Assembly (NCBI GenBank): GCA_021324735.1
Contig: JAJPIO010000013.1
Coordinates: forward strand, 1 to 64,000
Length of the DNA: 64,000 nt
Reading direction: 5' to 3'
From: Bacteroidota bacterium
Lineage (GTDB): Bacteria; Bacteroidota; Ignavibacteria; Palsa-1295
The position numbers and the translations under genes are program-made. Under the pieces are notes generated by a model. That model was not told where the DNA came from. It searched no databases and saw nothing but the letters and a program-made list of their open reading frames with translations. Of this stretch, positions 6,936 through 14,946 are shown piece after piece; the stretch's first letter is position 1, and each line of letters starts with the position of its first letter.

Positions 6936-6947
6936 TTAGTGTCGCCT

Positions 6948-7520
6948 ATGAAAACGCTCGCACGCAAGGACCAAATTCGCCTGAAGGCCCAAATGCTCTT
7001 TCGAGAGCGTGGCTATAGCGCTACCTCTATGCGCGATCTGGCCGATGAGTTGGGTATCGAGGCAGCCAGCCTTTATAATCATATCTCTTCCAAAGAAGAA
7101 ATTCTTCAAGGCATTTGCTTTGGAATGGCGGAGTCGTTCTTTGCGGCTGTCGAACCGGTTACTTTGAGCGCACTGGACCCCAAAGCGAAATTACAATCTG
7201 CCCTCGAAGCGCATTTGCGCGTGATCGCCGAAAATTCGGATGCTTCCGCCGTCTTTTTGCATGAGTGGCGTCACTTAGGTGAGCCCTTCTTAAGCGACTT
7301 CAAACTAATGCGCCGCCGATACGAGAAGCTGTTCGTTACGCTCGTCGAGGAAGGTATCGCACGAGACAGTTTTAAGAAGATGGACGCGCGAGTGGTCGCA
7401 CGAACGATACTCTCCGCAACCAACTGGACGTTCGAATCCCAAAAGACTTCCAAGTCCGATGGGGACGCCACGATTCAGCAGATCGCCGAACTGCTTGTTG
7501 AAGGACTTATCAGAAGATAG
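6948..7520 (+). CDS. TetR/AcrR family transcriptional regulator (PaaR-like by context)
   Basis: [46 protein letters not shown]; first gene before paaA; ORF can also start at GTG 6939. Confidence 0.88.
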
Positions 7521-7527
7521 AAATACT

Positions 7528-8517
7528 ATGTACGGAAACGCCTACATCGAGAATGACACGAAGCTTGTACAGAGCGCGCAGGTTGAAGATCCCGAAAAAT
7601 TAGCGGAGTTCGAAGCGCGCATTGCGCGTGGCGAGAAGATCGAGCCCGATGATTGGATGCCGGCCGAGTATCGCCGCCAGGTGCTGCGTATGATCGAACA
7701 GCATGCGCATTCCGAGATCATTGGTGCATTGCCCGAAGGTACATGGATCACGCGAGCACCAACGCTTAAGCGTAAGCTTGCTCTCATTGCTAAAGTGCAG
7801 GACGAAGTCGGTCACGGTCATCTTCTGTATGCGGCTGCGGAAACGCTGGGCAAATCGCGTGAAGCGATGATAAACGATCTTCTGAGTGGAAAGTCGAAGT
7901 ATAGTAACGTCTTCAATTATCCTGCGAAGACCTGGGCGGACATCGCTGTCATCGGATTTTTGGTCGATGCCGGAGCCATCGTTAATCAACTTGCAAATGC
8001 AAAAGGAAGCTACGGACCGTACTGTCGAGCTTTGGAGCGCATTTGTTACGAAGAATCCTTCCATTTGAAGCAAGGATACGATGCGTTCGTGGCGCTTGCG
8101 ACTGGCACACCAATGCAGAGAGAAATGGTGCAGGATGCGCTGAACCGCTGGTGGTTTCCGCCGCTTATGCACTTCTTCGGTCCACCGGATACGATTTCGG
8201 TGCACACGGAAAAGTTGATGCGCTGGAAGGTGAAGATGATGTCGAATGAAGAAATGCGTCAGGACTTCATGGAACAGTACGTCCCCAAAATTTGGGAGCT
8301 TGGGCTCACGCTTCCCGATCCGAAACTCAAGAAAAAGGAAGATGGCTCATGGGAGTACACTCAACCCGACTGGGACGAATTCTTCCGCGTCATCAATGGC
8401 GATGGCCCGTGCAACAAGGAGCGTTTAGCCGTCCGACGTTACGCTGAGGAGAATGGCCGCTGGGTAAGAGAGGCGTTGATGAATCCAACTATTAAGCATA
8501 TCGTCCCGTACGCGTAA
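7528..8517 (+). CDS. paaA: 1,2-phenylacetyl-CoA epoxidase subunit PaaA
   Basis: [71 protein letters not shown]...[13 protein letters not shown]; diiron carboxylate motifs. Confidence 0.95.
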
Positions 8518-8525
8518 GGATAGAA

Positions 8526-9101
8526 ATGCCATCATCGATATATAGCAACACCTTAACATTAGGAGAAGGACTCGGGGAATACCTGAGTCGCTTTGGCTTG
8601 GGTGATGGTGGGTATCGTGATCCGAAATTTACGATTCCCTTCTTCTGGGTATTTGCATTACGGTTACCGAATATTCGTGTTCGAGTTGAGGCAGTAAAAA
8701 TTCACGACTTGCATCATGTGCTTGCGGAGTATCCAACAGGGTTGCTCGGCGAAGCAGAAATTGGCGCATGGGAGATCGCATCGGGCTGCGGAAAGTATTG
8801 GCCAGCCTGGATCCTTAACTTTGGGTCGTTTTTATACGGGGTCGTTCGTCATCCTTCCGAGACCTTTCACGCATTCGTTCGTGGGCGACATAGCGATAAC
8901 TTGTACCATCAAGCAGATTACAAGGAAGTCCTCGGACGTTCTATCGGCGAAATTCGCCAACGACTTCACATGTCTCACGGGATTCCGAGTAGCAGCATGA
9001 GTGATATAGTGAGCTTTGCATGCTGGTCTGTAGTGAGTTTCGTGACATTAGCACTACCATTTTTAGCGGTGATTTACTTCACCGCTATCATTCTGCATTA
9101 A
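8526..9101 (+). CDS. Coq4-family-like protein with C-terminal hydrophobic segments
   Basis: Contains HDLHHVLAEYPTGLLGE, an exact HDxxHx(11)E pattern characteristic of COQ4; inserted between paaA and paaB. Confidence 0.7.
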   Translation: MPSSIYSNTLTLGEGLGEYLSRFGLGDGGYRDPKFTIPFFWVFALRLPNIRVRVEAVKIHDLHHVLAEYPTGLLGEAEIGAWEIASGCGKYWPAWILNFGSFLYGVVRHPSETFHAFVRGRHSDNLYHQADYKEVLGRSIGEIRQRLHMSHGIPSSSMSDIVSFACWSVVSFVTLALPFLAVIYFTAIILH

Positions 9102-9112
9102 GAAAGATTTTT

Positions 9113-9520
9113 ATGGTAACAAGCCTCGACCCCCGCATTCGCCGCGCAGACCTCGAGCACTCGCCCGCTTCGAGTGGCCTCAATCCGAACGAGCATTGGG
9201 ATACCTTTGCGATATTCCATCAGGATAAGCGCGGCACGGCGCACGAGTTTGTCGGTATTGTGCATGCGCCCGATCCGGAGATGGCACTCGTATTCGCGAA
9301 AGAGCAATACGGCCGCCGCAAAAAGACGGTGAACATCTGGGCTGTGCGTTCAACCGATATTTACACCTTCCAGCATAAAGACGAAGATATGTTTTCGACC
9401 GTGCCGGAGAAGACCTATCGTGAAGCGAGCGGCTATCCGGTACGTAAGCGTATCAATAAATATTTAGAAGAACTCAAAGCGATGCGGCATAAGCCGGTCG
9501 AAGAGGAGGAAGAAGCATGA
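9113..9520 (+). CDS. paaB: 1,2-phenylacetyl-CoA epoxidase subunit PaaB
   Basis: WDTFAIFHQDKRGTAHEFVGIVHAPDPEMALVFAKEQYGRRKKTVNIWAV. Confidence 0.92.
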   Translation: MVTSLDPRIRRADLEHSPASSGLNPNEHWDTFAIFHQDKRGTAHEFVGIVHAPDPEMALVFAKEQYGRRKKTVNIWAVRSTDIYTFQHKDEDMFSTVPEKTYREASGYPVRKRINKYLEELKAMRHKPVEEEEEA

Positions 9521-10290
9521 TTGAGCAAGTAAAAATAAATGAAGCCATGAAAAATCTTCTCTATCGCATCGCCGATGATGAACTCATCATCGGACATCGC
9601 AATAGCGAGTGGACCGGCTTAGGGCCGATCCTCGAGGAAGACATCGCGTTTAGCTCTATCGCGCAGGACCAGATCGGTCATGCCGTTGCGCTCTATTCCT
9701 TGCTGCACGAGCAATTCGCCGAGCCAAATCCGGACGCGATCGCATTTGGCCGCAGCGAGTCGCAGTTTCACTCATCACAATTCGCTGAGCTTCCGAGCGG
9801 CGATTATGCGTTCAGCCTCGTTCGTCACTTTCTGTTCGATCACGCGGAAAGCCTACGCTATTCGATGCTTACGGAGTCATCGTTCGCACCACTCGCAGCG
9901 CTTGCGAAGAAGATCAAAGGTGAGTTAAAGTATCATGTGCTTCATGCCGACCTCTGGGTAGAAAAATTAAGTAAGGGTACCGAAGAGAGTCATGCCAGAA
10001 TGCAGTCAGCACTCAATGAAGCGCTCACCTATGCGTATGGTATGTTCGAACCAAGTCAGTATGAAGAACTGCTGATCGAACAGGGCATTTTCGGTGGCGA
10101 ACGAACGCTTCAGCAAAAATGGATGGAGGCGATCCTTCCGATCATTGAACGGGCGAATCTTACTCTTCCCATGATCTCTGGCATCGATCCTATCTTCGGT
10201 GGGCGTAGCGGATATCACTCCGATTATCTACAACCTCTTCTCGACGAGATGTCGGAAGTTTATAGAATGGACCCGTCTGCTACATGGTAG
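9517..10290 (+). CDS. paaC: 1,2-phenylacetyl-CoA epoxidase subunit PaaC
   Basis: LLYRIADDELIIGHRNSEWTGLGPILEEDIAFSSIAQDQIGHAVALY; 4-bp overlap with paaB. Confidence 0.93.
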   Translation: MIEQVKINEAMKNLLYRIADDELIIGHRNSEWTGLGPILEEDIAFSSIAQDQIGHAVALYSLLHEQFAEPNPDAIAFGRSESQFHSSQFAELPSGDYAFSLVRHFLFDHAESLRYSMLTESSFAPLAALAKKIKGELKYHVLHADLWVEKLSKGTEESHARMQSALNEALTYAYGMFEPSQYEELLIEQGIFGGERTLQQKWMEAILPIIERANLTLPMISGIDPIFGGRSGYHSDYLQPLLDEMSEVYRMDPSATW

Positions 10291-10835
10291 AGAATGTAGA
10301 ACAGCTATCCTTGACGGTCACTCGAGCCTCCAGTCCGAGTGACATAGACAAGAACGCCTGTGCCACTGATTCTGTACTCGAAGTGCTTTCTCAGGTCATG
10401 GATCCCGAAATCCCGACACTCTCCGTGGTCGATCTGGGAATGATCTCTGGTGTAGAAGTAAATGAAGGAGTTGTTCGGATCAAGCTTCTGCCAACGTTCG
10501 TCTCGTGTCCCGCAACCACTTATATTCGAAAGAATATTGAGTCTTCTCTTATCAAAGCGGGATATCCATTTGTGGTGGTCGAGATGGAGCATGAGATCTC
10601 GTGGTCCAGCGATCGCATTACAGATCGTGGCCGCCAGTTGCTATCGGAATTCGGTCTCGGCATACCCGTTCAAATCGATGGTGTGCTCGACCTTGCCACG
10701 ATCGAACATGTGAACTGCCCGCACTGCGGCAGCTCAAACACGACGCTCCGTTCGATGTTCGGGAGTACGCTCTGCCGCTCGATCCATTATTGCAATAATT
10801 GCAAGCAAGGATTCGAGCGATTTAAACCGCTCTAG
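10284..10835 (+). CDS. paaD: 1,2-phenylacetyl-CoA epoxidase subunit PaaD (MIP18/DUF59 domain plus C-terminal Cys cluster)
   Basis: VLSQVMDPEIPTLSVVDLGMI...TFVSCPATTYIRKNIESSL...NCPHCGSSNTTLRSMFGSTLCRSIHYCNNCKQGFERFKP. Confidence 0.93.
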   Translation: MVENVEQLSLTVTRASSPSDIDKNACATDSVLEVLSQVMDPEIPTLSVVDLGMISGVEVNEGVVRIKLLPTFVSCPATTYIRKNIESSLIKAGYPFVVVEMEHEISWSSDRITDRGRQLLSEFGLGIPVQIDGVLDLATIEHVNCPHCGSSNTTLRSMFGSTLCRSIHYCNNCKQGFERFKPL

Positions 10836-13068: not shown

Positions 13069-14187
13069 ATGTCAAGCAAGAAAGAAGAAACACTTTGGAT
13101 AGCTGATCCGCACACGATTGCGAAAGTCGACATCCTTGAGAATTACCTGTCTCGTTACTTCCAGATTATTGGTAGCTTCAATAATAAGAGTATCGTTTAC
13201 GTGGACGGTTTTGCCGGACCGGGAAGATATAAGAATCATCCGACCGGTTCGCCTCTCGCTGCGTTGAAGGCAGCTAAAATTGCACTTTCATCGAAGAACC
13301 CAATTGTGAAAGCAAGCAAAATCCATTGCATATTTGTAGAGGAGAGAAAAGATCGATGCGAATTCTTGAATGATTTGATTGAACCATTCCGAAGTGAGCC
13401 AAGAATCGACATCCATATTTTTGAAGGTGATTTTGTCAAATCGCTTCCAAGAATTGAGGAGCTTTTCCCGCAATTATTTTCAACAAATTGGTCATTCTTC
13501 TTCATAGATCCGTTCGGCCCTACTGTTATTCCATTTTCGCTCATCGAACAGATCCTACGAAATAAATCATCCGAAGTGTTTCTTAATCTCGACGGAGACG
13601 GGATTGGACGTATCTTTCTTGCAGGTGAGAGTGCAAACTCCGAACAAAATCTTGAGTATATATTCGGAGGCAATAAGGATTGGCCATCTCTCTTTCGTCA
13701 GGCTTCTTCGCTTGACGAGTGTGCGCGTCAGGCGCTAGCACTTTATAAGACGAACTTATTTGGAATTCCTGGGGTCGATTATGCTTTTGCTTATGAAATG
13801 CGGGGTCGTCATAACAGTATTAACTATTTCTTGTTATTTGCATCACATCATCCATTAGGTCTCATAAAGATGAAGGAGGCAATGAAGTCAATTAACAAGA
13901 ATGGAAGTTACGTTTTTTCCGACGCGCGAGTAGGTCAACACGAATTATTTTCGTTTGATGATCCAACTTCATATGCAAACGAGATTTGGGAAAAATTCAG
14001 AGGTAAAAAGGTTGAGAGGCGAGAGGTTGAAAGATATGTTTTGAATGAGACACCTTGTTTGAGTATATCAGCACCGCTAAAAATGCTTGAGACTTCACAT
14101 CGAATCGAGGTTGAATTGTTTCCGAATGTGAGAAGAATTCGTGGCACATTCCCAGAAGAGAAAGTTAAGAGCATCCATTTTATTTAA
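13069..14187 (+). CDS. tcmP: Three-Cys-motif partner protein TcmP-like
   Basis: IADPHTIAKVDILENYLSRYFQII...VYVDGFAGPGRYKNHPTGSPLAAL...FFFIDPFGPTVIPFSLIEQIL; adjacent to DUF5131 gene. Confidence 0.85.
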   Translation: MSSKKEETLWIADPHTIAKVDILENYLSRYFQIIGSFNNKSIVYVDGFAGPGRYKNHPTGSPLAALKAAKIALSSKNPIVKASKIHCIFVEERKDRCEFLNDLIEPFRSEPRIDIHIFEGDFVKSLPRIEELFPQLFSTNWSFFFIDPFGPTVIPFSLIEQILRNKSSEVFLNLDGDGIGRIFLAGESANSEQNLEYIFGGNKDWPSLFRQASSLDECARQALALYKTNLFGIPGVDYAFAYEMRGRHNSINYFLLFASHHPLGLIKMKEAMKSINKNGSYVFSDARVGQHELFSFDDPTSYANEIWEKFRGKKVERREVERYVLNETPCLSISAPLKMLETSHRIEVELFPNVRRIRGTFPEEKVKSIHFI

Positions 14188-14190
14188 GTT

Positions 14191-14946
14191 ATGAGAAACG
14201 GCTCTTCCATCGAATGGACCGATTCCACCTGGAATCCAGTCACGGGCTGCACGAAGATCAGTGCTGGGTGCAAGAACTGCTATGCCGAGCGGATGGCGAA
14301 GCGGCTCTATGCGATGGGCTCCGATCGCTATCGCAATAAATTCAAAGTCACATTGCACGAAGATCTGCTTGATGCGCCACGGTCTTGGAAGCAATCTCGA
14401 ACGATCTTCGTCAACTCGATGAGCGATCTCTTCCACAAAGATATCCCTTTCGAGTTCATCCGCGATGTCTTTAAAACGATGGAAGAGACTCCGTGGCACA
14501 AGTATCAAATTTTGACAAAGCGAAGCGAGCGTCTCAGGGAGTTTGCGCCGTTGCTTCCATGGCCAGACAACGTATGGATGGGGGTAAGTGTCGAAGACAA
14601 GCGTGTAATTGACCGCATTGACGATCTTAAGCAAGTACCAGCCTCGGTACGATTTCTGTCGCTCGAACCACTTATCGGTCCGCTTGAGAATTTGGATTTG
14701 CGCGAGATCGACTGGGTAATTGTCGGCGGTGAATCGGGGCCAAAAGCGAGGCCAATGAAAAAGGAATGGGTAGAGTCAATTCAAGCTCAGTGCGAAGCTG
14801 CTGGGGTTGAATTCTTCTTCAAACAATGGGGTGGTGTCCGAAAGCACGAGACGGGCAGAGAACTGAACGGCAAGTTCTATGACAATATGCCATTCATTGG
14901 TCGCAGGCAATTTTTACCGCCTCTCGTTCAGATAGCATTACCCTAA
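14191..14946 (+). CDS. DUF5131 / phage Gp37-Gp68 family protein (three-Cys motif)
   Basis: [35 protein letters not shown]...[13 protein letters not shown]...[15 protein letters not shown]...FFKQWGG. Confidence 0.93.

Follow-up and report, generated by a model that had tools for sequence, protein, structure and literature searches.

A Coq4-superfamily gene between paaA and paaB of an Ignavibacteria bacterium lies in a recurrent insertion slot

The phenylacetate (paa) operon of a Bacteroidota bacterium of the class Ignavibacteria (assembly GCA_021324735.1, contig JAJPIO010000013.1) contains an extra gene between paaA and paaB, whose product is a distant member of the Coq4 superfamily. We think it likely that this protein is membrane-anchored, binds metal and acts on a hydrophobic substrate, and that its gene was placed in the operon by insertion into a variable slot. 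The gene would thus probably be transcribed with the paa genes but have no role as an epoxidase subunit. The gene is missing from the paa operons of the relatives examined and many unrelated genes occupy the same junction in this genus; it therefore looks like a passenger gene. This removes a tempting lead, a Coq4-type subunit of phenylacetyl-CoA epoxidase, and the variable slot cautions against reading function from operon position in one genome.

The window analyzed here is a stretch of 64,000 nucleotides, and the operon lies on its forward strand. A TetR-family regulator (6939-7520; PF00440 and PF17932) stands at the operon head, followed by paaA (7528-8517), which encodes the catalytic subunit of 1,2-phenylacetyl-CoA epoxidase (TIGR02156, 457 bits, E 2e-137). 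The next ORF (8526-9101, + strand) begins with ATG and encodes the Coq4-like protein of 191 aa. It is separated by 8 nt from the paaA stop codon (8517) and by 11 nt from the ATG of paaB (9113), exactly as the original prediction had it. Downstream are paaB for the bridging subunit (9113-9520; PF06243, E 1e-22), paaC for the structural subunit (9517-10290; TIGR02158, 243 bits, E 3e-72) and, as the final gene, paaD for the Fe-S assembly-type subunit (10284-10835; TIGR02159, 147 bits, E 4e-43). The established phenylacetyl-CoA epoxidase is PaaABCE (PMC4498308). Compared with the PaaABC(D)E operon, paaA, paaB, paaC and paaD are here in the usual order, but one extra gene separates paaA from paaB and paaE is absent, the gene after paaD lying on the opposite strand. 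At 0.46, the GC3 value of the Coq4-like gene is below that of the four paa genes (0.55-0.61), a difference in keeping with its insertion. Between the Coq4-like ORF and its paa neighbours, no sigma-70-like promoter was detected; together with the short gaps and the intact reading frame, this makes co-expression with paa probable, and leaves room for a recently recruited role. Elsewhere in the window (13069-14946), a 372-aa ORF with no Pfam match is followed 3 nt downstream by a DUF5131 gene (PF07505, E 7e-104).

The Coq4 assignment had been proposed from an HDxxHx11E motif, which we read as HDLHHVLAEYPTGLLGE at residues 60-76 (8703-8753, + strand) with H60, D61, H64 and E76 in place. The spacing falls within the HDxxHx10-13E pattern of Coq4. 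The expected chance occurrence of this putative metal-binding signature at such composition is about 0.0008 per protein. The hydrophobic C-terminus that had also been pointed out is borne out by a best 19-residue KD mean of 2.45 at residue 172 and by a predicted helix at residues 158-190. With the single sequence, the Pfam search gave Coq4 (PF05019) at 13.1 bits (E 0.06, residues 58-86), short of the gathering cut-off of 22.9, and the alignment spanned only model positions 124-152. Apart from Coq4, no Pfam family matched the single sequence at E<=1; NCBIfam gave no match, nor did phmmer with the single sequence against the PDB, where a profile was required.

Relatives were gathered from whole genomes and from 85,462 species genomes, the latter yielding 38 loci. 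In the alignment of 36 relatives (A2), P48, N49, R53, H60, D61, H64, E76, E83 and G120 are invariant. Conservation of HDxxH is partly by construction, since the search pattern for the 38 loci included it; E76 and E83 lay outside the pattern. Pfam Coq4 is matched at E<=1 by 24 of the 36 relatives (best 1.2e-4). Searched against the PDB, the A2 profile returned exactly two matches at E<=10, both of them Coq4: 3MSQ (E 1.7e-5) and 6E12/Alr8543 (E 1.5e-4). They cover the motif-bearing half, residues 120-221 of the Coq4 chain. The AlphaFold2 model built on A2 was confident (pLDDT 94.8, pTM 0.88), and Coq4 was its only credible fold match in the PDB, Foldseek finding the chains 6E12 and 3MSQ with probability 1.00 (E about 7e-3) and the next best with 0.06. 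The TM-scores of the model to Coq4 are modest (0.37-0.44). The profile matches and the Foldseek result thus identify the protein as a distant, half-length member of the Coq4 superfamily with a C-terminal hydrophobic helix. The earlier assignment holds at the superfamily level by profile, fold and invariant motif; it does not extend to a Pfam score above the cut-off or to the full-length, two-part Coq4 architecture (a model of about 220 aa), of which the C-terminal half alone aligns.

In COQ4, an enzyme that converts a ring carboxylate to a hydroxyl on polyprenylated CoQ precursors, metal is proposed to bind at the HDxxHx11E motif. The Coq4-like protein shares with COQ4/Coq4 (PF05019; Alr8543 PDB 6E12, 3MSQ) this site, the fold of its helical C-terminal half and the sequence that follows the motif (profile residues about 55-146). 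It differs in its half-size N-terminal part, in the added C-terminal hydrophobic helix and in its score under the Pfam cut-off. Two Mg ions are bound at the equivalent residues of Alr8543, which also has a lipid-like ligand between its hydrophobic helices (PMC9774615). Human COQ4 decarboxylates CoQ precursors oxidatively at ring carbon C1 (PMC11495197). On this analogy, a divalent metal is the most likely ligand of the HDxxHx11E site in the Coq4-like protein, and a hydrophobic, lipid- or quinone-like compound its most likely substrate. We take the protein to be self-contained and probably membrane-anchored.

Half-length Coq4-like proteins above the Pfam cut-off were found in 19 of 396 Bacteroidota genomes, the best of them matching about positions 117-219 only. 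These proteins (e.g. in G269, G320 and G024) resemble the paa-locus protein in covering the C-terminal half of the Pfam model and in size, their open frames being mostly 150-190 aa, but unlike it they pass the cut-off. The relatives gathered here put on record, in bacteria (Bacteroidota, Myxococcota and others), a family of half-length Coq4-like proteins whose metal site is invariant.

The motif and the Coq4 fold would also suit a genuine Coq4 orthologue with a part in ubiquinone biosynthesis, a reading we regard as extremely unlikely. Besides the missed Pfam cut-off and the half-length alignment, most tested relatives of the same taxonomic family lack the gene. The source genome gave no COQ7 match and only sub-cut-off UbiG matches, and it has two strong MqnA/MqnD-type matches. 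The quinone genes therefore suggest the futalosine route to menaquinone, with no canonical pathway to ubiquinone. Unlike Coq4 itself, the protein thus resides in a host where no ubiquinone-specific genes were detected, an occurrence that could help distinguish COQ4-site chemistry from ubiquinone synthesis.

We examined how the Coq4-like gene is distributed relative to paa. In six congeners, whose PaaA is about 91% identical, the gene was not found anywhere in the genome by single-sequence or profile searches. It is also absent from the paa operons of five other family members with paaA, and was not seen within about 1.5 kb of paaA in any of 21 more paa loci from the class. Within the same taxonomic family, homologues occur in three sister-genus genomes (G012, G004 and G011), with 53-65% identity over the matched part and in unrelated surroundings; each of these genomes has a paa operon too, and the Coq4-like gene is not in it. 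In two other class members (G416 and G426), the homologue and paaA are on separate contigs, and the surroundings of the homologue are again unrelated. The 38 homologous loci come from Bacteroidota, Myxococcota and others, and none of them has a relative of the TetR regulator, PaaA, PaaB, PaaC or PaaD (BLASTP E<=1e-6) within flanks of up to 6 kb. No recurring functional partner was found near the homologues; such neighbours as they share are accounted for by vertical synteny (Tenacibaculum, Polaribacter) or by shadow ORFs. The Coq4-like gene shows no conserved co-occurrence with paaA, paaB and paaC, and its position between paaA and paaB is particular to the source genome among those examined.

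This distribution bears directly on the original proposal that the protein is a new accessory subunit of phenylacetyl-CoA epoxidase, or a substitute for PaaE in electron delivery. Its position inside the operon with short gaps speaks for such a role, as does the lack of a strong PaaE in the source genome, where the best TIGR02160 match (E 6.7e-12) is far under the cut-off. However, congeners without the Coq4-like gene also lack a strong PaaE, whereas a strong PaaE match (E 1e-72 or better) coexists with a Coq4-like gene, located elsewhere in the genome, in each of the sister-genus genomes G004, G011 and G012. The gene does not track PaaE loss: the two are not anti-correlated, and the Coq4-like gene is not found specifically where PaaE is absent. 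Replacement of PaaE was therefore rejected on distribution. We know of no electron-transfer role for a Coq4-type metal site. No examined homologue lies near paa genes, and a partnership with the epoxidase is not supported, given that the gene is absent from paa in all relatives examined and that the junction is a variable insertion slot. Absence from the paaA neighbourhoods of relatives is also what the original proposal had named as refuting it. Among open-licence papers, our literature search found none on a Coq4-type component with phenylacetyl-CoA epoxidase, and nothing relevant on Kapabacteria and phenylacetate. Overall, we consider a subunit or PaaE-substitute role very unlikely.

Insertions recur at the paaA-paaB junction in this genus: six of its seven genomes carry inserts there, all different. 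In the source genome the spacer (window 8518-9112) holds the Coq4-like gene. The 982 nt spacer of G008 (L032 1080-2061) holds a PIN-domain ORF, the 1045 nt spacer of G009 (L033 4304-5348) a 348-aa ORF without Pfam match, and the 2270 nt spacer of G007 (L034 4835-7104) two ORFs, one weakly RHS-like. A GIY-YIG ORF occupies the 537 nt spacer of G005 (L035 2676-3212), and the spacer of about 2.8 kb in G010 (L036 2473-5279) contains a MazE-like ORF (weak match), an NOV_C ORF and others. The remaining genome, G006, has a 90 nt spacer with no insert; in the sister-genus genomes G002 and G003 the spacers are 15 nt and 6 nt. In more distant members of the class, the junction holds a PIN ORF preceded by a small ORF in L177 and 23S rRNA-intervening-sequence (four-helix bundle) proteins in L179 (2573-2950) and L186 (2551-2922). 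An excess of more than 400 nt was seen in only 2 of the 26 class genomes outside the genus's seven, counting those with paaA and paaC on one contig.

The frequency of splitting was compared with that of 54 tight co-directional gene pairs from sampled regions of six genus genomes, a small baseline with mechanical ORF calls. With the source genome excluded, paaA and paaB are split in 5 of 6 congeners as compared to 7 of 72 comparisons for the other tight pairs (Fisher p 2e-4). Three of the inserts contain copies of the ends of their flanking genes: a stretch of 71 nt from the 3' end of paaA in G010 (90%), and stretches of 65 nt and 47 nt from the 5' end of paaB in G007 (95%) and G008 (85%), respectively. 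Duplicated flanks were looked for in seven split pairs outside paa and not found. In the window spacer, around the Coq4-like gene, neither a duplicated flank nor a repeat was detected, and no mobile-element trace is visible at this copy. Because the window spacer has no such flank, it is the comparison of genomes alone that suggests the Coq4-like gene was inserted between paaA and paaB, at a slot that in this genus has repeatedly received unrelated genes. Its transcription with paa would then be probable.

Two other accounts of the insert also start from its place in the operon. The junction may be a dedicated gene-capture slot, in which cassettes are swapped in with short duplicated paaA/paaB ends (47-71 nt in 3 of 6 inserts). 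Homologous recombination between strains might be the mechanism, and the Coq4-like gene would be one such cargo, expressed under phenylacetate control. We offer this version tentatively and would sooner doubt it than adopt it. Alternatively, the gene could encode an enzyme of phenylacetate or aromatic side metabolism, recently recruited in one species, selected into the operon and acting apart from the epoxidase. The tight, probably co-transcribed position is compatible with recruitment, and COQ4 chemistry is itself an aromatic oxidative decarboxylation (PMC11495197). However, the PIN, GIY-YIG, 23S-IVP and RHS-like genes in the same slot of relatives do not suggest a metabolic role, and the arrangement was not seen in a second genome among those examined, so that we judge recruitment unlikely.

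Extra ORFs are also seen at the neighbouring junction of the operon. GIY-YIG nuclease ORFs lie between paaB and paaC in two congeners (L035 3615-4177 and L034 3925-4464). In G005, the spacers on the two sides of paaB are related, the one between paaA and paaB also carrying palindromic ATTCCCGCG...CGCGGGAAT repeats.
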